Assembly: GCA_028819845.1 (NCBI GenBank)
Contig: JAPPKS010000031.1
Span: 1 to 64,000, forward strand
Length of the DNA: 64,000 bases
Source of the DNA: Candidatus Poribacteria bacterium
Lineage (GTDB): Bacteria > Poribacteria > WGA-4E > PCPOR2b
Reading direction: 5' to 3'
In this document: piece after piece, positions 211-56,287 of the stretch
Position numbering within the stretch: position 1 is the first letter of the stretch
How the letters are laid out: every line of letters starts with the position of its first letter
Notes under the pieces: model-generated
Database searches by the model: none
The model's input: the letters and a program-made list of their open reading frames with translations, nothing else
Told to the model about the DNA's origin: nothing
Position numbers and translations under genes: made by a program

Positions 211-396
211 ATATTGTGAATTATCTGCGTTTGTGCCGTGTAGCATTGCCGGTTAGAATTTTGAAAAAAGATTCGTCACTGAAGTAAATGAGAGGCAAAC
301 GATTTAATTGATTTTATTCACGATGCAGGAACTACGTAGTGGTTCGCAAAAAAGGGCAAGACATTAAGGAAGTTGAAATCCGAAAGGAGTTTCGCG

Positions 397-1413
397 ATGC
401 GGATGAAATACACAACGGCCCTGTACATGGTAACGCTCATCTCTGCAGCGTTATTTAACGGAATGATGCTAAGCGAAGTGCTTGCAGAGGCGCCCAAGGA
501 TGAACTGATTGCTTTCTCGACAAATCCGGTTCAGGAGAGTGGAATCTGGTTGATGGATCCTGATGGTAAGAACCAACGCGCACTTCTAGTAATAGAGGGG
601 AAGCCAGTGCCGCTCGGGTTGGTTTGGTCACTAGACGGAACCCGAATTGCATTTCACACCGAAATAAATGAAAACATCGATGTTTATGTAGTTGATGCTA
701 ATGGTCAAAATCTTTTGCAGCTCACCAACCATGAGGCGGAAGATAGCTGGCCCACATGGCATCCGGGCGGTCAGAAACTCGCCTTTTGCACCAACCGCGA
801 TGGTAATTATGAAATTTATGCGGTCACATTGGCTGGACAAGGATTGGTCAACCTCACCAACGACCCCGTTAGGGACAGAGAGCCGGCATGGTCCCCGGAT
901 GGCCGAAAGATTGCCTTCGCTTCCAAGCGAGGCAAGAGCCTAGGAGATATCTGGGTGATGGACAATCATGGCGGCAACCTTCAAAATCTTACAAATGTCC
1001 GTGGTCAAGACTTACAACCTAGATGGTCGACAGACGGTGAGAAGGTTGGGTGGACCTCGCGTCGTGACGGCTCGGAGGAGATTTGGGCAATGGACGCAGA
1101 CGGCGCCAACGAGTTGAAAGTCAGCAGCAAGCAAGACCCAAATCCCGGCGGCAGTTTCGACTGTTCAGAGCCAAGTTGGAAACCCAACGGTAAAGAGATT
1201 GCGTCAACCGCGCTAGGCGGGGGTAGTGCAACTATCCGCATTCACGCTGCGAACGGTAGTCTACAGCGGTTAGACCTTACACGCCAGGGCAGGCAAAACC
1301 GTTCTCCCGCGTGGTTTGACCCAGACTTCGCTATAGTGGAATTTTCAGTATCTCCAGCCGAGAAACAGGTTTTAACCTGGGGTTGGCTCAAGCGGATGGG
1401 GCGGGAAAATTGA
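397..1413 (+). CDS. Secreted TolB-like beta-propeller protein (copy 1 of 3)
   Basis: A 338-residue protein with a signal peptide (about residues 1-30, ending EVLA) followed by about six TolB/PD40-type repeats, each with a W-S-P-D-G-x-x-I-A-F strand and a D-I-W-V-M-D turn. The start at 397 is chosen because GAAAGGAG at 382-389 sits 7 bases upstream; the frame is open back to 373. The fold suggests a periplasmic or surface protein-interaction scaffold; no catalytic residues are evident. It is the first of three tandem paralogues with strongly similar sequence. Its last 23 residues carry a P-x-E-K-x3-T-W-G-x-L-K motif shared with the other copies and with an unrelated protein at 18.8 kb. True TolB belongs to the Tol-Pal system, but no tol or pal gene is nearby, so only the fold assignment is firm. 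Confidence 0.85.
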   Translation: MRMKYTTALYMVTLISAALFNGMMLSEVLAEAPKDELIAFSTNPVQESGIWLMDPDGKNQRALLVIEGKPVPLGLVWSLDGTRIAFHTEINENIDVYVVDANGQNLLQLTNHEAEDSWPTWHPGGQKLAFCTNRDGNYEIYAVTLAGQGLVNLTNDPVRDREPAWSPDGRKIAFASKRGKSLGDIWVMDNHGGNLQNLTNVRGQDLQPRWSTDGEKVGWTSRRDGSEEIWAMDADGANELKVSSKQDPNPGGSFDCSEPSWKPNGKEIASTALGGGSATIRIHAANGSLQRLDLTRQGRQNRSPAWFDPDFAIVEFSVSPAEKQVLTWGWLKRMGREN

Positions 1414-1477
1414 AACGCTCCTATCCACTCAGTTTTCGGCCTCCTCCTTATCGAAACTCGCTTCATGACGCCAAGCA

Positions 1478-2539
1478 ATGAGGCGGTCTATGCGATTTAA
1501 AAACACGTTGTCCATTCACATGACAGTGTTCGCTGTTGTTTTTCTTGCCAGCTTTTTCACGATGGTCGTCGCATTTGCGCAAGCACCCGATAGGGCAACT
1601 ATTGCATTCTCCACCAACGACGAAGCCCAAGGCGGCATCTGGTTGGTAGACATTGATGTGCGCGGTGGACAGGGAAAAGGCGATGTCCATGTCCAAAATC
1701 AGCGCGTTCTTCTGGCAATTGATGGAAACCCCATTCCATTGGGTTTGGTGTGGTCGCCGGAAGGGCGAAGAATTGCCTTCCATACGCAGATTGATGAAAA
1801 TATTGATGTTTATGCGGTCGACAGCGATGGACAAAACCTGCGTCGACTCACCGACCATGAGGCGGAAGATAGTTGGCCGAGTTGGCATCCGGGCGGTGAA
1901 AAAATTGCTTTCTGCACAAACCGAGATGGGAATTTCGAAATCTACGTGATGTCGTCAACTGGGCAGGGGTTATTCAATCTCACCAACGACCCCGCCAAGG
2001 ATAGGGAACCCGACTGGTCGCGAAATGGACGCCTAATTGCATTTGCTTCCAAGCGCGGAAAAAGCTTGGGGGACATATGGGTGATGGATAGCGGCGGTGG
2101 AAACCTGAAAAATATAACGAATGTCCGCGGTGAAGATATGCAGCCTAGGTGGTCGTGGGACGGTCAGAAAATTGCTTGGACATCTCGCCGAAACGGGAAC
2201 GATGAAATTATGACGATGGACGCCGCAGACGGCGGCAATCTACTAAAGATTAGCGATCTCAAGGATGCGAGATCGCAGGGGCGGCCCAATCGGGAACCGA
2301 GCTGGAAACCCGACGGCAGGGCAATCGCCGCGCCTGCCCTTGGCGGCGGCAAGTCGTTCATCATGATTCATCCGGCAGATGGGAGTTTGCAATGGCAGGA
2401 CCTTCCCGCTGTAGGCATTCAAAACCGTTCCCCGACATGGTTCGATCCTGAGTATGTTATAGAAGAATTCTCCGTATCCCCCGCCGAGAAACAAGTCTCA
2501 ACATGGGGTCGGATTAAACAGGCGGTACAAAACAATTAA
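1478..2539 (+). CDS. Secreted TolB-like beta-propeller protein (copy 2 of 3)
   Basis: A 353-residue paralogue of the preceding gene, about 65 bases downstream. A signal peptide (hydrophobic stretch about residues 15-33, cleavage near VAFA-QAP) precedes the same six PD40-like repeats. It differs from copies 1 and 3 by a roughly 10-residue insertion (DVRGGQGKGDVHV region, about residues 63-75) in the first blade loop. No clear Shine-Dalgarno precedes the first ATG, and the in-frame ATG four codons later is an alternative. The C-terminus again ends with P-A-E-K-x3-T-W-G-x-I-K. Probably exported; function unknown beyond a beta-propeller scaffold. Confidence 0.85.
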   Translation: MRRSMRFKNTLSIHMTVFAVVFLASFFTMVVAFAQAPDRATIAFSTNDEAQGGIWLVDIDVRGGQGKGDVHVQNQRVLLAIDGNPIPLGLVWSPEGRRIAFHTQIDENIDVYAVDSDGQNLRRLTDHEAEDSWPSWHPGGEKIAFCTNRDGNFEIYVMSSTGQGLFNLTNDPAKDREPDWSRNGRLIAFASKRGKSLGDIWVMDSGGGNLKNITNVRGEDMQPRWSWDGQKIAWTSRRNGNDEIMTMDAADGGNLLKISDLKDARSQGRPNREPSWKPDGRAIAAPALGGGKSFIMIHPADGSLQWQDLPAVGIQNRSPTWFDPEYVIEEFSVSPAEKQVSTWGRIKQAVQNN

Positions 2540-2619
2540 CGTATCTCTCGTCATGAATGTACCTGAAAACCCTGGTCTCCAATCCGCTTAAAGGCTTGGA
2601 GCTCGAAAGGAGATTAGCT

Positions 2620-3600
2620 ATGCGCCTGGTTACATTTGTCGCTTTCGTGCTCCTTGGCGGCATGTTAGCAAGCGTGGAGTCGGCAGAAGCACCCAAAGAA
2701 GAGACGATGGCGTTTTCCACCAATCACGTTGGGGAAGCCGGCATTTGGTTAATGGATCCTGACGGGGGTAACCAACGCCCGTTTCTGGCAATAGGTGGCA
2801 ACCCAATCCCGCTGGGTTTAGTGTGGTCTTCTGACGGCAGCAAAATTGCCTTCCATACAGAAATTAATAAAAATATAGACATCTATGTGGTTGATGCCGA
2901 CGGGCAAAATCTTCGGCAACTCACCGACCATGAGGCAGAGGATAGTTGGCCAACCTGGCACCCCGCCGGTCAAAAACTTGCCTTTTGCACCAACCGAGAT
3001 GGGAATTTTGAAATCTATTCGGTCACGTTGATCGGGCAGGCATTGAAAAACCTCACCAATGATGCGGTTAAGGACAGGGAACCGGCGTGGTCCCCAGACG
3101 GTCGTCAGATTGCTTTCGCTTCGAAGCGGGGCAAGAGCCTTGGCGATATCTGGGTGATGGATAACAGTGGCGGTAACCTGAAAAACCTTACTGACGTTCG
3201 CGGTCAGGACACTGAACCTAGATGGTCATGGGACGGTCAGAAAATAGGGTGGACCTCCCGCCGAAATGGAAACGACGAAATCTGGATTATGGACAGTGCT
3301 GATGGCGGAAATCTGTTGCAAATTTCGGACGTCAAGAACAATAGCGACCCGAATCGGGAACCGACTTGGAAACCGGATGGCAAAAAAATCGCTTCTCCGG
3401 CGCTGGGAGGTGGATCCGCGACTATTCGCGTACACCCGACAGACGGTAGTCTAAAGTGGAATAACCTGCAACGCGTCGGCACGCAAAATCGTTCCCCAGC
3501 TTGGTTTGACCCGGACTTTGTTGAAGAATTTGCCGTATTCCCCGCCGATAAAAAAGTTTTGACTTGGGGTTGGCTAAAACAGGCGGGAATGGAAAATTGA
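2620..3600 (+). CDS. Secreted TolB-like beta-propeller protein (copy 3 of 3)
   Basis: A 326-residue third tandem paralogue. The start at 2620 is preceded by AAAGGAG at optimal spacing and directly opens a signal peptide (MRLVTFVAF..., cleavage near VESA-EAP); the longer open frame from 2557 has no such signal. Six PD40-type repeats follow, then the conserved P-A-D-K-x3-T-W-G-x-L-K tail. The three copies are equidistant and co-oriented, so they are likely co-transcribed and arose by tandem duplication. Specific ligands cannot be read from the sequence. Confidence 0.85.
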   Translation: MRLVTFVAFVLLGGMLASVESAEAPKEETMAFSTNHVGEAGIWLMDPDGGNQRPFLAIGGNPIPLGLVWSSDGSKIAFHTEINKNIDIYVVDADGQNLRQLTDHEAEDSWPTWHPAGQKLAFCTNRDGNFEIYSVTLIGQALKNLTNDAVKDREPAWSPDGRQIAFASKRGKSLGDIWVMDNSGGNLKNLTDVRGQDTEPRWSWDGQKIGWTSRRNGNDEIWIMDSADGGNLLQISDVKNNSDPNREPTWKPDGKKIASPALGGGSATIRVHPTDGSLKWNNLQRVGTQNRSPAWFDPDFVEEFAVFPADKKVLTWGWLKQAGMEN

Positions 3601-14590: not shown

Positions 14591-17089
14591 TTACCGAAGG
14601 ATTGCCAATCGCCCTAAAGCTTGAGTGTTTTCGCTGTCGGCAACCGCGTAGACTTTGTAAAGATAAACTCCATTGGCAAGCATTGTTCCGTGTTCATCTC
14701 GCCCGTCCCACATTGCCTCATTGTAACCTTCCCGTGCCGAAACTCCCTTTAAAACGCGAACGCGGCGGCCGGCTTTGGAATAGATTGAGATTGACGCTTC
14801 ATCAGCATCTTTTGTCAATTCGTACATCAACGTCGTTTCTTCATCGAACGGGTTAGGGTAATTGCGCAGCGTGTCGATTTTAAGTGCGGACTTTTGCGGA
14901 GAATCGTAAACAGCGTCCCGAATCAGTATTTGCGGGTCAAAATTTGACAACCAGGTAATCTCTTCATTAATCTGCTTGAGCAGAATGGCTTCATTAATTT
15001 GCCGATTGTAGCCGAAGATTGTGACGAAAGTATGGAAGGACTTGACGGCGGAGGTCAACGATTTGGAATATTCTATGGCACTGTGCAGCTTTGTGCGAAT
15101 TAGGTTTTCCTTGCCCTCCTCGTATCCTGCCTGAACCGCTTCCGTTAAACGGAGGCGGCTCTCAAAAAACTGCACCCAAAGGCGCATCAGGCCGACCGCG
15201 TCTTCCAGATGTCGCGCAGCCTCTTCGGAAACAGGTCTTGCAATTCTCAATGCGCTTTCAATTTCATTGGCGGCGCGCTGCTGTTGCGGAAGAAGAGATG
15301 AAAAACGGCCCGCGGCAGACCGGGCAGCCTTTAAATTAGGCATTGACAGCGTATCGGCTACCGCTTCCGGTCCGATTATGTCCCAAAACCGAGTGGCAAG
15401 CCCCGCGGACCCGCGACCGTAGTTCCCAGCAATGGAAAGCGAACCCGCGTAGTCGCTAAAATAGCTCTCCAAAACCCATGTGTTTATCCGCAGCGCGTTA
15501 AGAATGAGCTTAGCGGCGTCAGCACCATACTGATTGACCAGGTAGTTTTCCATGAGCTGGAGGTGATTTGTCTCAACGTCCCAATTTATCCTCGCACTCA
15601 CGAGTCGGTCCAAATGCCCCAAGTTGTTTTGAGTACCTTGGACTGTAAACCCCCCTAAACCAGTCACGGCAGGATTATTCGACAACTCACGGACACCATG
15701 AACGAATAGGTCGCCTTCAACCATCCAAAACGGAACGACCTCTTCGACATCGTGTGAGAGAACAATTAGGCGGTGTCCCAATTCGCCCAGCGTATTAATT
15801 CGATCGATTGAAATCCGCGCATCCGCGGTCGGCTCGCCGTCCGCTCCCCATTTTTGTGAAAAGATTGTGCCTGTTGGCAACTGGCGCGCGTAGTCGCTGT
15901 CGGGATCTTTCAGCCAAAATCTATCGTACCCTGAGATATAGAATTTTAAATCCGGGCGTACCTGCTGCGCAGCCTCAATGATTGTGAACATCACCTGCCA
16001 CAGCAGATCTTGCCCTTTTTCCGATGTGTCGCCGCACTCCGGACAGTGGCAAGCGCGGGTTTCGACGCCCCAAGCCCGCAAGTGGAAACCCGCAAGCGTC
16101 GGATAGGTCTTCACAATCTCTTGAATCAACTCCCGCGCGAAACTGTGAAATTCGGGCTTGGACCAACAAAACGGGCGATAATCAACGCGGTTCCGCGAGC
16201 CGCTGTAGGGCACTCGCGGTCCCAGAACATCTGGACGCCGTTCAATCACCGCTTTTGTCGGCTCGCCCGTAACATACATAAAGAGGTACGAGTCGATTCC
16301 CCGCCGATGCAATGCCTGGAAGCGGTTTCGGAGTTTTTGGATGCGCTGCCGGCGTTGGTTGAGTGGCTCGTCCTGCAGCGATTCAAAGTCCGGTGAATTG
16401 ATGTATTTGACGGCTGTACCTAGTCCATCATCAATACCCGTTCCCGTCCATACGCCTTCGCCGCCGCTCATGTTGAGCCGATGCCGTGCAAACCAATTCA
16501 CATTTTCAACCTCCAATCCCGCCCTGACCGGGTAAAATGGCTGTGACGTTTTTTCCAATAAAGGTAGGTCAAGATTTGGCGAGGGCTGAACTACGAAATC
16601 AAGATCTGCCGGCGAAAGGCCAGTCAGCCGCGTGATGCACGCTTCAATCAGATCGTAAGCGCCGTAGAGTACGCCGCGGGATGCGTTGCCTGCGATTGCA
16701 ATAACCAATTCGTTGTCCAATTCGACTGTTTTTAGCACATATCCCTCGTCGCCGATATCGGGGCTGAGGTGGAGCAGTCCTTCAGCCATCATCAGGCGAA
16801 TAGCGGGATTCGAGTCGGGGGTGCCCAGCGCAATCGCCGTTGGAGTTGTCGTCGTTTGACGATTGGTAAAGATGTCCAGTTCAGCTCCGGTGAATCGCCG
16901 AATAAATGTCTGAATCTCCTCGGCTGCAAATTCCTCCTGCGCAGACGCGGTGGCGCCGATTTGAACTGTCGCCATTGGTCGTCCTGACCGAACGATTGGA
17001 ACTTCTGCCGCATTTGCCCAGCCATGCACGCATACAAGGGTTATGTATAACAGAAGATAAGCAATAACCGAATAAATTGTACGTTCCAT
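14591..17089 (-). CDS. Secreted GH67-like glycosidase-type protein with FlgD/T9SS-like tail
   Basis: About 832 residues from the start at 17089, which opens a clean signal peptide (cleavage near ANA-AEV). The frame extends to an ATG at 17188 that overlaps the upstream stop (ATGA), so coupled initiation there is possible, but it would put 33 residues before the hydrophobic core. Mature residues about 25-150 resemble the alpha/beta N-terminal domain of GH67/GH20 enzymes. A TIM-barrel-like region follows, with a C-H-C-P-E-C-G cluster. The last about 85 residues form an Ig-like module with N-Y-P-N-P-F and W-D-G-R-D-x-x-G, as in FlgD/T9SS sorting domains. Likely acts on surface polysaccharide; it follows an O-antigen ligase gene. 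Confidence 0.72.
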   Translation of the reverse strand: MERTIYSVIAYLLLYITLVCVHGWANAAEVPIVRSGRPMATVQIGATASAQEEFAAEEIQTFIRRFTGAELDIFTNRQTTTTPTAIALGTPDSNPAIRLMMAEGLLHLSPDIGDEGYVLKTVELDNELVIAIAGNASRGVLYGAYDLIEACITRLTGLSPADLDFVVQPSPNLDLPLLEKTSQPFYPVRAGLEVENVNWFARHRLNMSGGEGVWTGTGIDDGLGTAVKYINSPDFESLQDEPLNQRRQRIQKLRNRFQALHRRGIDSYLFMYVTGEPTKAVIERRPDVLGPRVPYSGSRNRVDYRPFCWSKPEFHSFARELIQEIVKTYPTLAGFHLRAWGVETRACHCPECGDTSEKGQDLLWQVMFTIIEAAQQVRPDLKFYISGYDRFWLKDPDSDYARQLPTGTIFSQKWGADGEPTADARISIDRINTLGELGHRLIVLSHDVEEVVPFWMVEGDLFVHGVRELSNNPAVTGLGGFTVQGTQNNLGHLDRLVSARINWDVETNHLQLMENYLVNQYGADAAKLILNALRINTWVLESYFSDYAGSLSIAGNYGRGSAGLATRFWDIIGPEAVADTLSMPNLKAARSAAGRFSSLLPQQQRAANEIESALRIARPVSEEAARHLEDAVGLMRLWVQFFESRLRLTEAVQAGYEEGKENLIRTKLHSAIEYSKSLTSAVKSFHTFVTIFGYNRQINEAILLKQINEEITWLSNFDPQILIRDAVYDSPQKSALKIDTLRNYPNPFDEETTLMYELTKDADEASISIYSKAGRRVRVLKGVSAREGYNEAMWDGRDEHGTMLANGVYLYKVYAVADSENTQALGRLAILR

Positions 17090-17184
17090 GCACTTGCGTT
17101 GCCTAGAAAGCGCACCTCTTTCCAAATGCCGCACCGGATTCCTTATGCACTTTAGTGCATCAACCCAACTGCGATGAATTTGCG

Positions 17185-18600
17185 TCATAGTGCTGTCTCC
17201 CTTTTGGCAATGTTAACTACGGTGGGAAGCAGGCCGTAGATTATCCAGAAGGGTACCCCAATTCTATCTCCGTTCAACAGGTTGTTGACGGTAAAATGTA
17301 CAAGCAGTGATAATTCCGCTGTCATCAGGCCAATGATAACGAATCGATAAAATCCATCGTCAATACCCGATAGTGCACGCAGTCCAAAGCTGAAGAAAGC
17401 GAAAATCACCCACATCCAAACCGCAAATCCCACAATACCCAACTCCGCTAGAACTTGTAGATATTCGCTGTGCGCCCCTAACCGGTATTGCGCCACAAAC
17501 TCTCCGATGAGAGACACGTTGGGTTCATAGATCATGGCAAATGCTCCGTATCCATTCCCAATGATGGGACTCTGCAGAAACATGATGATCGCTTGACCCC
17601 AACGCAGCAGACGCGACTGATTGGAGGCAAACTCTAAACTGAATGCGGTTGAGATTCGATTAAACACCACATTGGAAACTCCGGGCACGGAAAAAATAAA
17701 AAGTAAAATCCCGCCAACCAACACCACAAAAAGAATTCTTTTGTGTTGCTCACCGGTCAACATCAGCAGAAAAGTGACTGCGGCAATCGCGGACAGCCAT
17801 ACACCCCGAGAGAAACACATCATGAGTCCCACACCGAAGACTATAAACATGACGGTCCACAGCACTCGATCGTAGTGGGTGCGATCGAGTAGCAATCGGC
17901 TAAGCACGATTAAAAAGAAGATTGCCGTGAACGATCCGTAAACAGAGTAGTTCGTAAACGGGGATCCTCGATATGCAGAAGTCCACTGCCACTCATCGAT
18001 ATTGTAGATCAAAACCACTGCTGTCCAGATAACTGCAATCAATGCGGATGGGAAGGCGGCAACGAAAAGCCTTCGCAAATCGCGGCGGTTCTTAATCAAC
18101 TCATAAGCTAAGAAACTCGACATTATGTAAACAGCCGCTCGAAATGCACCCTTCGCTGAGACAAAGAGTTGGGGTGCGTTGAATATCGGCAGAAAGTGTA
18201 CGAAAATATAAATGCACACCGGAACGCGGAATGGAAATCGTCCATCTGTCGTATCGTCCCTTTCGCGCACTTTCGCACGCATCACTCGGTCAACAACCTT
18301 TCGAATGAAAAAGGCAAACACAAGCATTCCCAATAGCGGTTCGGTGGGCGTCTGGACTTCGGCTTCAGCTGGCAGGATGTATCTGCGTGAGAAAGGCAAA
18401 CAGAGGAGCAGGGCGTAAAGCGAGAAATCCATCGACAAAAACACCAAAAACCCTACGATTGCTAGACCGAGCAAGATGACAATCGGCGACTCGGCGTAAA
18501 TTGCGAATGCTGCACCCAGCAGAATACACGCGATTCCATAGGCGGCTAGGTAAACATGATGATTCAGATATTTTGAATAATGGGTTAGGTCTGTTTGCAT
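17185..18600 (-). CDS. O-antigen ligase / polymerase-like membrane protein
   Basis: A roughly 471-residue polytopic protein with about 11-12 hydrophobic segments and the Wzy_C/O-antigen-ligase signature: a long loop with R-L-x-x-W-x-x-A and N-G-Y-G-A-F, then G-A-H-S-E-Y-L-Q-V-L-A-E-L-G-I-V-G. The conserved Arg and His are those used in the WaaL family to transfer lipid-linked polysaccharide. The start at 18600 (MQTDLTHY) is preferred to the frame extension to 18645. The stop overlaps an ATG of the next frame by 4 bases, linking it to the secreted GH67-like gene. Expected role: assembly of surface glycans in the inner membrane. Confidence 0.82.
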   Translation of the reverse strand: MQTDLTHYSKYLNHHVYLAAYGIACILLGAAFAIYAESPIVILLGLAIVGFLVFLSMDFSLYALLLCLPFSRRYILPAEAEVQTPTEPLLGMLVFAFFIRKVVDRVMRAKVRERDDTTDGRFPFRVPVCIYIFVHFLPIFNAPQLFVSAKGAFRAAVYIMSSFLAYELIKNRRDLRRLFVAAFPSALIAVIWTAVVLIYNIDEWQWTSAYRGSPFTNYSVYGSFTAIFFLIVLSRLLLDRTHYDRVLWTVMFIVFGVGLMMCFSRGVWLSAIAAVTFLLMLTGEQHKRILFVVLVGGILLFIFSVPGVSNVVFNRISTAFSLEFASNQSRLLRWGQAIIMFLQSPIIGNGYGAFAMIYEPNVSLIGEFVAQYRLGAHSEYLQVLAELGIVGFAVWMWVIFAFFSFGLRALSGIDDGFYRFVIIGLMTAELSLLVHFTVNNLLNGDRIGVPFWIIYGLLPTVVNIAKRETAL

Positions 18601-18794: not shown

Positions 18795-19523
18795 CTATTC
18801 AATCTTTAGCGCTCCCCATGCCGTCGCCAGATTGTCTTTGGGTTGCACCGCAATTTCAATCTCTTCGGTTGCAACATCGTAGCTGACGAGTTCAAACGTG
18901 ACATCTCTTCTATCAATCGTTTTCACGATACCCACATTGGGAGCCAACCACATCGTCATATCCACTTCGACGTTTCCAATTAATACAACGTTCGTGACTG
19001 TCTGCTCGATTTTAAGCGAATTTGGGAAGCTTCCCGCCGGAACGGTGACATCGTCAATAGCAACGACTTCCGACTCTATGATGCTTTGAATTGTGCCGAG
19101 AAGCGGAACCGAGGCTTCACCCTCAATAGTCCACTTCGTGCCGAGATCCAATGGATTGGGTAAATAATCCTGCGGTGGCGTAATGTCATAAACCACCTCA
19201 CCTATCAGAGGAACCTCCGCTACCAGCCGGTACAATTTAATCCCATCCGTTTCCGTTTTAATATACAGTTTACTCAAATCTTCCGGTGACTGATCCATTA
19301 TTATTCTGAGTTCCTCGCCGTTGACGATTTCGGGACCTTCAATCGTCACGATTTTCTCTTCAACACCGTCGGTGCTGCGTAAACGCCATGTATTTCCAAA
19401 TTCATCCGGATAATAGTTTTGGGCATAGCATTGTGGCGGGAAGTCAAATACACCCGAAATACAGATGGCGCAGACGACTGCGTAAACTAGCCGAAGCAAC
19501 ATTTTATCTATCTTGATATTCAT
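18795..19523 (-). CDS. Secreted protein of unknown function with TWG-type C-terminal motif
   Basis: A 242-residue protein with a signal peptide (hydrophobic 8-28, cleavage near CYA-QNY) and an all-beta mature region. A segment D-V-T-V-P-A-G-S-F and a later W-L-A-P-N-V-G-I-V-K are typical of secreted DUF3108-like envelope proteins. GGAGTG lies 5 bases before the ATG. The C-terminus ends P-K-D-N-L-A-T-A-W-G-A-L-K, matching in spacing the tails of the three propellers at 0.4-3.6 kb although the folds differ. It is followed by a carboxypeptidase-regulatory-like lipoprotein in the opposite gene order on the same strand. Function unknown; probably exported. Confidence 0.75.
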   Translation of the reverse strand: MNIKIDKMLLRLVYAVVCAICISGVFDFPPQCYAQNYYPDEFGNTWRLRSTDGVEEKIVTIEGPEIVNGEELRIIMDQSPEDLSKLYIKTETDGIKLYRLVAEVPLIGEVVYDITPPQDYLPNPLDLGTKWTIEGEASVPLLGTIQSIIESEVVAIDDVTVPAGSFPNSLKIEQTVTNVVLIGNVEVDMTMWLAPNVGIVKTIDRRDVTFELVSYDVATEEIEIAVQPKDNLATAWGALKIE

Positions 19524-37060: not shown

Positions 37061-38083
37061 ATGGAATATCGTCCATTTGGGCGGACAGGGCTCCAAGTTT
37101 CTGCGATTGGATTCGGTTGCTGGGAGATGGGGGGCGATTATGGGTCAATTGATGAATCAGAGGCGACGAATGCTGTGCATCGTGCCATTGATTTGGGCAT
37201 AAACTGTTTTGATACTGCTGAAGCTTACGGTATGGGAAAATCAGAGGAGGCTTTGGCTAAAGCGTTGGGGCATCGGCGAAAAGATGTTATTATAGTCACG
37301 AAGTTCGGCGTTGGCTACGAGAACGACCGTCAGAAAGGGAAAGACAGCAGCCGAGAAATGGTGCATGCCGCTATTGATCGTAGCTTGAAAGCGCTAAACA
37401 CCGACTATGTAGATGTTTATTTAGTCCACTGGCCCGATCGCTCGACTCCTTTTGAAGAAACGATGGGTGCGTTTGATGAGATTGTGCAGCAGGGCAAAGT
37501 CCGCTACGTTGGACTTTCGAATTTCACGCTCGGTGAAATCAAGGCGTGCATGGCAATACGGCCGATCCATGTTTTGCAATACGGATGCAATCTGTTTGAT
37601 AGGCGTATGGCAAAATGGATCTTTCCTTACGCACAAGAACAACAAATTGGCGTAATGTCGTACGGGTCGCTTGCCTACGGATTGTTATCCGGGACGTTCA
37701 CGAAGGAGACAACTTTTGGCGACAAGGATTGGCGTAGCAGGGACGAATGGCTGCACTTGTTGAGGTTCTTTACACCAGAGGTGTTCGAGCGTAACGTCGA
37801 GGTCGCCATTGCGATTTCTGACATTGCCGAACGGTTAGGAAAAAAACTGCCGCAGTTCGCCCTCAATTGGGTTTTGTCGCATCAGGCGGTTAGTACCGCG
37901 CTTGTTGGCGCAAGGCGGTCCCTCGAAGTTGAGGAAAACATGGGAGCTATCGGCTGGAGCCTGTCGGATGAAGTGATTGCCGAAATTGATAAAATCTTTG
38001 CGGATCACGGTGTCGATCCCGCCCCGAACACTTGGGTGGAAGAGATCGAGACGCATGATTCGGATGCTTCCGACGCCAACTAA
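37061..38083 (+). CDS. Aldo/keto reductase
   Basis: A 340-residue (alpha/beta)8 NADPH-dependent reductase. The catalytic tetrad is complete: D51, Y56 (F-D-T-A-E-A-Y-G), K81 (V-T-K-F-G) and H123 (L-V-H-W-P-D). NADP-binding features at the end include A-L-V-G-A-R and a conserved E-V-E-E-N. GGGAGG lies 7 bases before the ATG. Its 3' end overlaps the convergent DUF6785-like gene by 4 bases. Substrate unknown. Confidence 0.92.
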   Translation: MEYRPFGRTGLQVSAIGFGCWEMGGDYGSIDESEATNAVHRAIDLGINCFDTAEAYGMGKSEEALAKALGHRRKDVIIVTKFGVGYENDRQKGKDSSREMVHAAIDRSLKALNTDYVDVYLVHWPDRSTPFEETMGAFDEIVQQGKVRYVGLSNFTLGEIKACMAIRPIHVLQYGCNLFDRRMAKWIFPYAQEQQIGVMSYGSLAYGLLSGTFTKETTFGDKDWRSRDEWLHLLRFFTPEVFERNVEVAIAISDIAERLGKKLPQFALNWVLSHQAVSTALVGARRSLEVEENMGAIGWSLSDEVIAEIDKIFADHGVDPAPNTWVEEIETHDSDASDAN

Positions 38084-40014
38084 CTGTCGTGCCACCCCAT
38101 GTTATATGTCGTGACTCTGAACACGGCGCTGATAATGCTCCAGATGCAGCCCATTGAGTAGTCCCCTAGAATCAATCCCGCAAAGAAAGGGATGGCTCTC
38201 CGATATGCTTTCAACCCGCCGTACCGAAGGATCGAAAACTTCAGTGCCCAACTGATAAGGACTGGCACCCAAATATAGACCATCTCGCCCGGACTCATCC
38301 CCAGTACATAACCGACGGGGTGGAGCGGCCACCAGAGAAAACGCATCTTTAAAGCTAATAGTAGCGCGGTGATTCCCGTTCCCAGCCCCATGAATCCCAT
38401 TGTCACGTAATCGTGTCCCTGTGGCAAACTTAACCACAGTTGGAGGCGTTGGGTAAAAGTTTCGTATCCTACTCTCAAGATAAATGAACGCGAATTTGCT
38501 GCGCCGTGTTCATACAACAGATGAAGGTATATCAAAAAAGTCAAAGGTATGCCGACAGCAAGCGTGATGAGCATCGCCCGCAGTAGTTTGCGGTTATTGA
38601 TGCTTGCCTGCTCGCCAATCCGAAATGATTCTAGTTGGTTCGGCATGGGATGGTGGGGTTGGTCCCGACTCAACCAATAGAAGAAGGAGAGTACGGTCAA
38701 GTTGCGAGGTCCATACGTGCGCGTGCCGAGCGACGTCACCATCGTCCGCGCCGGATTCAAGAATAGTATCTCATGCACTGCAACGCCAAGGCCAGCTCTG
38801 ACTTTAGTTACTCCAATGGCGCTGCAACAGTATATGCCAAAGAACAAGATCAAGACCCAAAAGGAAAGCCCAGCTTTATAGGCGAACCAGAGGAGAAACA
38901 GCAGCCCGCCGATGATCCCCAACAGCGCGGTCCGGTATCGCATGGGCTCGTTGACCTCACTCAATTTGCCGCCGCCTGAGAACACTTGTGAGAAAAGTCG
39001 TTTGAAATGATTGCGCCCCACCCATAATGCAAGAAGCCCCAGTCCAATCCACGCCCCTTGTGCCTGCTCATCAAAATAGAGGGTACGCCACCCCATGACG
39101 CCCAAAAACATCCGCATCAATTTCTGTAATAGGAAAAAGAACCACGCGGAAAATGCGAGATCTAGAGGCATAAAAAAGGAGAGTCCAATCACGAATGGCT
39201 GAAAAGAGATGAGCGTCCGGCCGCTATAAACCCATGGCTTCTCCCGCGGGGTAATGTTCTGCCACCCCACCGGTATAGCAGGAATGGCGGGGTATAAGGC
39301 GTGCAAACCGTTCAGCAAACTGATTCCAGCCGCGATACCAAAACCGGCCCACATCAACTTTTTTCTGAAGAATGACGATGGGTCTCTTCCCATTTCCAGA
39401 GGCATCCAAGTAATCGGATAAGTAAGTCTCTCGTGTTCCGTGAATTGCCGTCTGATTAGGGTATTGATACAGATTAGGACAAAATAGATGACGAACGTGA
39501 AGGCGGACCAATAGATCATTGGGCCAATCCAAGCCTTAAAGTGATGTCGCGTGAAAACTGAGGACTCGCCTAGAAAAAAGCCGCGCAGCACGCTCTTGTC
39601 GTTCGTCGTAAACCAAGGCGGGATATACTGCCAGAACAAGTTTCGCCAGTCATTTTCCGCAGTGTCGAACCAGAACGGGTGGGCGAGCGTCCCGACCAGT
39701 TTGTTCATCGTGGTGTGCCCAGACACCGTTGTTACCATTACAGCCATTACATAGATGACTAAAAGGTTTGATGGGCTGAGCGAATGCCTAGGAAGGAATT
39801 TGCGTAGTAACAGGTTGAGTAAAATCAGGACAAACAGGGTGAAAACGGCATTACTGAAGAGCGACATGTAGTTGTGCACCAGACCAATGATGAGGTTGTT
39901 TACCGAAACCCAATAGGTGTTTACGATAACCACCACAAGTCCGATGACGACAACTTTCAGAGGAATGTCAGTAGACTGTTTGTCTTTAATAGGTGGGAAT
40001 TTTTCCACAGGCAC
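38080..40014 (-). CDS. Polytopic membrane protein, DUF6785/DUF6784-like
   Basis: A 644-residue integral membrane protein with about 13-14 hydrophobic segments. It shows the pattern I associate with DUF6785/DUF6784 proteins: L-x-x-L-L-R-K-F-L-P-R near 67-77, V-S-G-H-T-T-M near 97-103, H-P-F-W-F, and H-E-R-L-T-Y-P-I-T-W-M-P-L-E-M near 196-210. These resemble oligopeptide-transporter-type (OPT) proteins, so a transport role is possible. No ATPase or binding protein is nearby. It converges with the aldo/keto reductase gene. Confidence 0.75.
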   Translation of the reverse strand: MPVEKFPPIKDKQSTDIPLKVVVIGLVVVIVNTYWVSVNNLIIGLVHNYMSLFSNAVFTLFVLILLNLLLRKFLPRHSLSPSNLLVIYVMAVMVTTVSGHTTMNKLVGTLAHPFWFDTAENDWRNLFWQYIPPWFTTNDKSVLRGFFLGESSVFTRHHFKAWIGPMIYWSAFTFVIYFVLICINTLIRRQFTEHERLTYPITWMPLEMGRDPSSFFRKKLMWAGFGIAAGISLLNGLHALYPAIPAIPVGWQNITPREKPWVYSGRTLISFQPFVIGLSFFMPLDLAFSAWFFFLLQKLMRMFLGVMGWRTLYFDEQAQGAWIGLGLLALWVGRNHFKRLFSQVFSGGGKLSEVNEPMRYRTALLGIIGGLLFLLWFAYKAGLSFWVLILFFGIYCCSAIGVTKVRAGLGVAVHEILFLNPARTMVTSLGTRTYGPRNLTVLSFFYWLSRDQPHHPMPNQLESFRIGEQASINNRKLLRAMLITLAVGIPLTFLIYLHLLYEHGAANSRSFILRVGYETFTQRLQLWLSLPQGHDYVTMGFMGLGTGITALLLALKMRFLWWPLHPVGYVLGMSPGEMVYIWVPVLISWALKFSILRYGGLKAYRRAIPFFAGLILGDYSMGCIWSIISAVFRVTTYNMGWHDS

Positions 40015-54457: not shown

Positions 54458-56287
54458 CTATTTCGCAATCACCATCCGCTTCATCTGATGAAGAGATGGC
54501 GTAGAAAGTCGGTAATAATACACACCGCTTGCCGCCCGTTCGCCCAAATCGTCGCGTCCGTCCCAATAGGCGGCGCGTGACCGGTTTTGATAGAAGCCTG
54601 CAGATTGGAATCCCAACGAAAGCGTCCGAATTTCCCCGCCGTTTGCGTCATAAATTGACACGGTTACCGGTGCAGTTTCGGATAGGTGGTACGGAATCCA
54701 TGTTTCCGGGTTGAACGGATTGGGATAGTTCTGCAGCAGAAGCGTTCGTTCGGGCGTTCCAACGCCGTCAAGCCTAACTGGCAAAACCGCGTTTATAAGT
54801 GCGTCGGGTGTTACTGTGAAATCGAACTTTTCTGAAGCAATCGCCCCGGTTGTGTCGGTCACGGTAATTCTTAACATGTCACCAACTTGTGCAATGTTGC
54901 GGCGCGAAATATTGGCGGTCGCTGCGGCGAAGTACCCATTTCGCACATCGCCTGTCGTAGTAACACCGGTGTCCAAGTTTTGCACTGTGACGACGTAGCC
55001 ATCGTGGTTTAGCTCGCTCTCTAAGTGTCCGCTGATAACAAAAGCCCAAACACCTGAAATCGTTTCGGCGCTAGGCGCCGCAACAATTGGCGGTTGATTC
55101 TTCCACGCGGCGCCAACAAATGAGACCTCCCGCGGCTGCAAAAGGTTGACGATGTAACCCTTCCCGCCTTCAATTGAAAATCCGTCGTCCGGTGCGTCAG
55201 GCGTCCACCCGATAAATCTCTGATTCTCCTCATCAAGGTCAACTACTATCGTCGCACCGACCATCTGCGCTAAGGAACGAGCAGTCATCGGCGTCGTTGG
55301 GTTAAGGGGAACTGAGAGCATGTTCAAGCCTTGAGCCAGAGATACAAGAAAAACGTTACTATACGCTTCGGCAGTCTCACCCGTAAAGGGGTTGGCAATA
55401 AATCCGTACCTGCGTCCATCTTGAGCGTCGTAGTAGCCAACTACCCGACCATCCTTGTCAATATCCCGCCCCACCGTGGTCACGCTGCCTGGGAATTTCA
55501 ACTCATTCATCGTGCCATTCGGGTGGCGGATGTAAGTGCGTTCGGGGCTATTCAACGCTTTCGCTCTGAACACGATGATACCGGCATCGTTTATTGCATT
55601 CACGAAAAGGTACTCTAAATTTGACAACATGCCCGGAAAATTAAAAGTGATATAGCTGCCATCGGCCTGGCGTGCATACCCGTGATATACCCCATCGGCG
55701 TCGACGTAACTCCCAACTAGGATTCCGTCGGCGTTCATGTCGTCGGCATAAGTTGTCATTGCTCCCGGTACGTCGAACAGTTCATTCCCCACAAAGCCGT
55801 GAATTACCCCATCAGAATCAAAAATATCGCCTATAAGCAAGCCTGATTCACTAACGCCAAAAATTTCCGTTTCGGCTGCACCCGGAAAATCGAATTCTTC
55901 CAATTCACCGTGCTGAATGATTACACCGTGCGAGACCTCGTCTGCATCTTGATAGAATCCGACAGCCAGGCCCGCATTGTTGAGTCCGTAAATGCCAAAA
56001 GTGCGGGAATTGGGCACGTTATAAGCGGCATAAACTCCGTCAATCAGCGTAAAGCCGACCATTTTCTCGCTGTCAAGGCCTCGGGCGTTGCCAGCGAAAT
56101 GTCCGAGGTCATTGGTTGAAGTCAACTCCAGAAATTCGACGCCGGGCACCTTAATTGTCTCAAAAACATAGTCTACAGCAGTTTCAGTTGGCTCAGACTG
56201 CACCCAGAGTTGTGCGTTCCCATTCATTGATAAAAGAGTGAGCCAGACGATCGTGAGAAACGCGAAACGAAAAGCCAGGGTTTTCAT
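54458..56287 (-). CDS. Secreted HAF-like repeat protein with FlgD/T9SS-like C-terminal domain
   Basis: A 609-residue protein with a signal peptide (residues 1-25, ending G-N-A-Q) and GGAG upstream. Residues about 40-320 contain about seven repeats like the extracellular HAF family (G-x-x-N-D/E-x-G-x-x-V-G-x-Y/F ... D-G-x-x-H-G-F). A middle region (about 325-400) resembles a P-L-N-P domain that presents W-x-P. An Ig-like segment follows, and the C-terminal about 90 residues (N-Y-P-N-P-F-N-P-E-T, W-D-G-R-D-D-L-G, G-V-Y-Y-Y-R-L) match the FlgD-Ig/T9SS sorting type. Probably surface exposed; no enzyme residues seen. Confidence 0.82.
   Translation of the reverse strand: MKTLAFRFAFLTIVWLTLLSMNGNAQLWVQSEPTETAVDYVFETIKVPGVEFLELTSTNDLGHFAGNARGLDSEKMVGFTLIDGVYAAYNVPNSRTFGIYGLNNAGLAVGFYQDADEVSHGVIIQHGELEEFDFPGAAETEIFGVSESGLLIGDIFDSDGVIHGFVGNELFDVPGAMTTYADDMNADGILVGSYVDADGVYHGYARQADGSYITFNFPGMLSNLEYLFVNAINDAGIIVFRAKALNSPERTYIRHPNGTMNELKFPGSVTTVGRDIDKDGRVVGYYDAQDGRRYGFIANPFTGETAEAYSNVFLVSLAQGLNMLSVPLNPTTPMTARSLAQMVGATIVVDLDEENQRFIGWTPDAPDDGFSIEGGKGYIVNLLQPREVSFVGAAWKNQPPIVAAPSAETISGVWAFVISGHLESELNHDGYVVTVQNLDTGVTTTGDVRNGYFAAATANISRRNIAQVGDMLRITVTDTTGAIASEKFDFTVTPDALINAVLPVRLDGVGTPERTLLLQNYPNPFNPETWIPYHLSETAPVTVSIYDANGGEIRTLSLGFQSAGFYQNRSRAAYWDGRDDLGERAASGVYYYRLSTPSLHQMKRMVIAK

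Follow-up and report, generated by a model that had tools for sequence, protein, structure and literature searches.

A short C-terminal WG tail on exported proteins of Poribacteria, a probable and undescribed label for addressing to the cell envelope or surface

One tail on unrelated proteins of the window

The locus raises the question of why a small exported beta protein should end in the same short peptide as proteins of a quite different fold. The window, the whole stretch of 64,000 nucleotides that was analysed, belongs to a Candidatus Poribacteria genome of 4.61 Mb in 35 contigs, and the protein at issue is a 242-residue open reading frame with a signal peptide and the C-terminus ...EEIEIAVQPKDNLATAWGALKIE. 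Its ending recurs on three tandem propellers, whose chains finish in SPAEKQVLTWGWLKRMGREN, SPAEKQVSTWGRIKQAVQNN, and FPADKKVLTWGWLKQAGMEN (Table 1). When the strict regular expression of the initial annotation was run over all six frames of the window, it matched in exactly these four places, each within six residues of a stop codon. The P-to-W spacing of 8 claimed for the 242-residue protein is indeed that of the three propeller tails, and the GxLK ending is shared by all four, but it is not terminal as had been described, with I-E following GALK in the 242-residue protein and six further residues following in the propellers. The remainder of the protein was correctly judged not to be a propeller, as it matches a DUF3108-like Pfam family, while the other three match PD40. 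Two further exported proteins of the window carry FlgD_ig/T9SS-like ends, by PF13860 and TIGR04183 matches, and both evident lipoproteins lack the tail, again as annotated.

Table 1. Positions of the tail-bearing proteins and related features (window coordinates unless a locus is named)
Feature	Position	Strand	Evidence
Exported DUF3108-like (YmcC-like fold) beta protein, tail-bearing	18795..19523	-	Pfam PF21347 E 5.6e-8; Foldseek
WG tail of the 242-residue protein, IAVQPKDNLATAWGALKIE + stop	18795..18854	-	ORF reading, pattern match, AlphaFold
Exported TolB-like PD40 propellers, tandem of three, each tailed	373..3600	+	PD40 E 1e-28 to 4e-35; heuristic signal peptides
WG tail FSVSPAEKQVLTWGWLKRMGREN, PD40 propeller 1 (ORF 373-1413)	1342..1413	+	Pattern match, PD40 match
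WG tail FSVSPAEKQVSTWGRIKQAVQNN, PD40 propeller 2 (ORF 1478-2539)	2468..2539	+	Pattern match, PD40 match
WG tail FAVFPADKKVLTWGWLKQAGMEN, PD40 propeller 3 (ORF 2557-3600)	3529..3600	+	Pattern match, PD40 match
Exported protein, alternative C-terminal FlgD_ig/T9SS-like domain (residues 783-850)	14591..17188	-	PF13860 E 1.3e-12, TIGR04183 weak
Exported protein, T9SS type A-like C-terminal domain (NYPNPFNPETWIPYHL...KRMVIAK)	54458..56287	-	PF13860 E 6.7e-10, TIGR04183 27.5 bits (cut-off 23)
SprA/Sov-like giant T9SS translocon	L075:5439-12005 (G000:C12)	+	TIGR04189
2285-residue scaffold, at least 5 cohesin matches, T9SS C-terminal domain	L152:8578-15435 (G000:C21)	+	

Homologues of the 242-residue protein were found in 83 of 85 Poribacteria genomes. 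Significant fold similarity to solved structures was limited to its best Foldseek matches, namely exported proteins or lipoproteins of Bacteroides and Parabacteroides together with E. coli YmcC. In an AlphaFold model, for which the alignments were built from sequences of the same phylum, confidence is high over the domain (pLDDT ~90) and falls to ~31-37 at residues 221-242. A tailed LamG protein behaves in the same manner, with pLDDT ~40-47 over its last 14-16 residues, and in both models the tail is a low-confidence coil with no predicted strands. Because the tail is disordered beyond a confident domain in two unrelated folds, it is predicted to be a free appendage.

Abundance, anatomy, and bearers of the tail

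Within the window's genome, a DNA-level search for the exact form of [TA]WGx[hydrophobic]K gives 52 sites, against 4 for the reversed pattern. Read one by one, the sites number 53, one being a duplicate truncated by the edge of a locus; 49 are no more than 16 residues from a stop codon, and 47 of these are in open reading frames of at least 80 residues. A signal peptide was called in 41 of the 47 by a home-made hydrophobicity heuristic rather than by SignalP, and among the six without such a call, several are incomplete or begin at a wrongly assigned start, and the proteins at L031 and L035 show a signal peptide by eye. In a fetched sample of 807 genes, the motif sits at the C-terminus of 110, where 1.3 would be expected from its internal frequency; the proportion of tail genes in this sample is inflated because the stretches were picked around hits, and the unbiased abundance figures are therefore the DNA-pattern count and the site-by-site reading.

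Enrichment in exported proteins was assessed on the sampled stretches together with the unbiased DNA-pattern sites. In the sample from the window's own genome, 45 of 51 tail proteins were scored as exported, compared with 98 of 340 others (Fisher p = 3e-16), and in three distant genomes of other families and classes the figures were 33 of 35 and 38 of 142 (p = 8e-14), a comparison between tail and non-tail proteins that sampling around hits does not affect. The initial annotation had made its proposal depend on such an enrichment in signal-peptide proteins, and the proposal withstood this test. A few tail proteins resemble lipoproteins by a crude test; these count against an anchoring role for the tail because a second anchor would be needless for them.

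The tail is a feature of the whole phylum. Its T-W-G form is present in all 85 Poribacteria genomes and all 22 genera, with 4 to 119 sites per genome (median 73) compared with 0-8 for the control. In G009, which has the lowest count, and in its relative G011 the tail takes the W-A form, so the low apparent number of tails in G009 arises because W-A replaces W-G there; when W[GA] is allowed, G009 has 30 sites against 7 controls and G011 has 47 against 3, and 24 of 30 sites read in this check are C-terminal. We had considered G009 as a natural knock-out that had nearly lost its tails, an idea rejected on finding the W-A form in this lineage. A scan of named genomes with a pattern covering one codon arrangement returned a single match, a genuine tail from Poribacteria, and says little about other phyla. 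No description of the tail came up in searches of open full-text papers for Poribacteria sorting signals, T9SS, and cohesin/dockerin systems.

Approximately 20 residues long, the tail has the consensus ...V-x-P-x-x-K-L-x-T-T-W-G-x-I-K, or more fully A/S-V-x-P-x-[GDE]-K-L-x-[TS]-T-W-[GA]-x-[ILV]-K followed by 0-9 residues, and W-S variants also exist. Relative to W, the 110 tails of the sample carry A/S at -11, V at -10 (102/110), P at -8 (77/110), K at -5 (91/110), L at -4 (68/110), T at -1 (84/110), G or A at +1 (94 and 16), I/L/V/M at +3, and K at +4 (108/110). The W, G/A, and K/R positions are fixed by construction, because the collecting regular expression required them, and T-1 was limited to six residues; V-10, P-8, K-5, and L-4 were free. 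Third codon positions hold almost no information beyond what the genetic code itself imposes at W and K, and therefore the conserved object is the peptide and selection acts on the protein; a DNA-level element was rejected on these codon-position statistics.

The same statistics bear on the suggestion that the tail is an inherited residue or DNA-level repeat left by gene duplication, with no function of its own. The LamG and PD40 genes have expanded, partly in tandem, which fits such a history, but random third codon positions stand beside fixed residues, and the tail is common to unrelated folds and to all deep lineages. This explanation is already contradicted by the codon statistics and the phylum-wide conservation, and we consider it barely credible.

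Among 106 tail proteins scanned, Laminin_G_3 (51) and PD40 (25) predominate, with 3-keto-disaccharide hydrolase (6), CBM9 (4), and others making up the remainder. Among the top 25 NCBIfam and Pfam families listed for them, the one with a tail-type name is TIGR04183, which matches three members weakly (best E 0.0044), at positions that may lie within the tail or outside it. LamG and PD40 relatives without a strict match mostly have a variant tail, a T9SS-domain end, or no signal peptide. Eight PD40 propeller genes, nearly all tailed and one with the WS variant, are clustered at L047:6700-16291 (plus strand, G000:C12), ~15-30 kb downstream of the SprA-like gene, an arrangement that could reflect linkage or coincidence.

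Exchange with dockerins and T9SS domains

Critical to the interpretation of the tail is what replaces it in orthologues. Among homologues of the 242-residue protein with readable ends, those in families f1, f2, f3, and f8 finish in WG or WA tails. A type I dockerin terminates most proteins of family f4 and the one from f6, and in two proteins of f4 a T9SS domain takes this place. In the 807 sampled genes, WG tail, dockerin, and T9SS domain were never found two together in one protein. The same domain can thus be followed by any one of three modules, two of which are established devices for addressing or docking, and this is the strongest functional clue that we have. It had been suggested that the distribution of C-terminal ends fits several alternative retention routes, one of them undescribed; the presence of the tail on unrelated folds and its exchange with T9SS domains and dockerins fit the idea of alternative routes, while retention, as opposed to export or docking, is a candidate among the possible functions.

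On this evidence, the WG tail is probably a short linear C-terminal sorting or docking signal of Poribacteria. In the mechanism we propose, tail proteins would leave the cytoplasm by way of a Sec-type signal peptide and then fold, with the last ~20 residues remaining free on a flexible linker. A conserved envelope receptor would read the tail and bring its bearer to the outer membrane or cell surface or keep it there, so that the tail would do the work of the T9SS C-terminal domain or dockerin of orthologous proteins. From the features of the tail and its bearers we infer the existence of the receptor, the surface location, and binding rather than cleavage as the key step.

Poribacteria appear to possess a core T9SS. 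The SprA match (TIGR04189) extends across a 2188-residue open reading frame at E 5e-47, with a score of 159.9 bits that lies below the NCBIfam cut-off of 200. SprA, the PorV family, and C25 peptidases are all present in the 21 Poribacteria genomes tested, with 14-24 matches to the PorV family in each genome, of which one or more exceed the cut-off, and 1-4 C25 matches; T9SS-domain-like PFNPETW sequences occur in 85 of 85 genomes. These findings bear on a 2014 single-cell study in which the T9SS sorting domain was described in Poribacteria and structural genes were reported to be missing (Kamke et al., 2014; PMC3909097). At L139, L143, and L145, several PorV paralogues directly adjoin proteins of 465 to 2506 residues with T9SS-domain-like ends, which suggests dedicated shuttle-cargo pairs.

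This machinery makes it possible, if doubtful, that the tail serves as a T9SS signal of minimal size, read by PorV-family barrels for exit through SprA in parallel to the FlgD-like domains, and reading by one of the many PorV paralogues is the leading specific rival to the proposed mechanism. Both the presence of SprA, PorV-family proteins, and C25 peptidases in all genomes tested and the interchange of tail and T9SS domain among orthologues favour it, as do the short T9SS signals on record: surface translocation of P. gingivalis HBP35 required the last 22 residues of its domain (PMC3120885), and P. intermedia has shortened signals of 43-55 residues (PMC11969387). Raw counts of tails and T9SS domains correlate moderately over the 85 genomes (rho 0.40), but the ratio of the two ranges from 0.19 to 7.4, its low extreme owing in part to the WA variant, and the PorV paralogues viewed mostly adjoin large T9SS-domain-like proteins, with one having a tail gene nearby. 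A comparison of 129 tails with 29 Poribacterial T9SS domains by hhalign gave a probability of 0.1%, the GxY motif is absent from the logo of the 110 tails, and neither TIGR04183 nor PF18962 matches the four window tails. The tail is not classed as a T9SS domain because it lacks GxY, predicted strands, and profile similarity, and membership in that family was rejected. In essence, tail and T9SS C-terminal domain (type A, TIGR04183/Por_Secre_tail, and the short P. intermedia variants) are alike in their C-terminal position on exported, unrelated folds, in their use by orthologues of the same protein, and in the presence of the T9SS machinery in these genomes, but the domains are beta modules of 40-80 or more residues with GxY and terminal basic motifs, while the tail is ~20 residues, predicted disordered, and unrelated in profile.

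The dockerins invite a second comparison. Cohesins and dockerins are present in all 21 genomes tested, which suggests that cohesin-dockerin assemblies may form in Poribacteria. The tail is borne by two single-cohesin proteins of 349 residues encoded in the window's genome, and a T9SS domain forms the end of its multi-cohesin scaffold of 2285 residues. Anchoring cohesins elsewhere have a C-terminal surface-attachment signal, and the tailed ends of the single-cohesin proteins match this arrangement, in favour of the proposed sorting or docking signal. The tail could, by a further account that we regard as unlikely, be a docking helix for a scaffold, perhaps for these very cohesin proteins, and so a minimal dockerin-like peptide. 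The co-occurrence of cohesins and dockerins and the replacement of dockerins by WG tails in orthologues would fit; that the cohesin proteins are themselves tailed is neutral. As a matter of speculation, V-x-P-x-x-K-L-x-x-x-W-G-x-I-K might fold into a short helix when bound, its L, W, and I lined up on the same side as this account would have it, an idea to which the free-chain models lend no support, AlphaFold giving coil for the free tail. The profile comparison with Poribacterial dockerins again gave 0.1% by hhalign. Type I dockerins, although they take the place of the tail in orthologues of the 242-residue protein, are ~60 residues with paired calcium loops, while the tail is shorter and shows no profile similarity; dockerin membership was rejected on the profile result and the shortness of the tails.

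Cleavage, turnover, and a separate pathway

Short conserved C-terminal motifs on dozens of exported proteins per genome are also the hallmark of LPXTG (sortase) and PEP-CTERM (exosortase) signals, and the tail is similar in this respect. Those signals include a transmembrane helix and a basic cluster, and the tail has neither: with 0-9 residues remaining after the motif, no hydrophobic helix or transmembrane segment follows, and the hydrophobic helix with a basic end of the PEP-CTERM type is absent from the tail sequences. The sortase family (PF04203) was found in 0 of 21 genomes, while 3 positive controls were detected. A sortase or classical CTERM signal was rejected by this architecture and this absence.

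It is nonetheless conceivable, at a low probability, that a sortase-like or PorU-like enzyme cleaves the tail at one set bond, such as W-G or T-W, and attaches it to a glycan or lipid of the surface. The strict position near the C-terminus, with 0-9 residues left, and the invariant W-[GA] resemble a cleavage site, and the C25 peptidases that are present belong to the class of PorU. Weighing against cleavage are the missing sortase family, the want of a transmembrane segment or basic anchor of the LPXTG and PEP-CTERM kind, and the genomic surroundings, tail genes being linked to no enzyme family. The co-occurring processing enzyme anticipated by the initial annotation failed to appear, as no gene family within two genes of the tail genes is convincingly enriched, one three-member family reaching p = 0.043 before correction. 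A polytopic membrane protein family (38080-40014 of the window, minus strand, with relatives in ten fetched loci) recurs near several tail genes, an enrichment that is not significant (p = 0.15).

Being C-terminal, short, and unstructured, the tail might instead serve as a periplasmic quality-control, chaperone, or proteolysis tag rather than an address, which we consider very unlikely. Periplasmic proteases of the PDZ type do read short unstructured C-terminal peptides, but at the extreme C-terminal residues, and the tail has an end of variable length (0-9 residues) that often carries charge. Such a tag would also leave the exchange with T9SS domains and dockerins unexplained.

Also similar in form are the cargo peptides of encapsulins and microcompartments, in which a short C-terminal tail on a flexible linker is borne by unrelated cytoplasmic cargo. 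The WG tail resembles these cargo-loading peptides in being short, linker-borne, and attached to unrelated proteins, with the difference that its cargo is exported. C-terminal sorting signals are already known, and the WG tail is a new type among them. Whether as a sorting or as a docking signal, it may belong to a separate, undescribed localisation pathway with its own receptor or attachment machinery, independent of the T9SS and serving several dozen exported proteins per genome, and to this we assign slightly less than an even chance.

Poribacteria are dominant uncultured symbionts of sponges whose surface biology is largely obscure. With a tag legible in the sequence itself, several dozen proteins of the envelope or surface would be identified in each genome, and the proteins so listed (LamG lectin-like proteins, propellers, carbohydrate-binding proteins, cohesins) are candidates for contact with host and matrix. 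The concrete question that this raises is what reads an anchor-free C-terminal signal of 20 residues.

One LamG gene of the collection (L045:9522-10370, minus strand) departs from the usual ending: its tail reads SGKLATAWG, an in-frame TGA follows, and then ATA AAG AAA CAA GAA TAA, so that the nonsense codon falls at the variable position directly after W-G.
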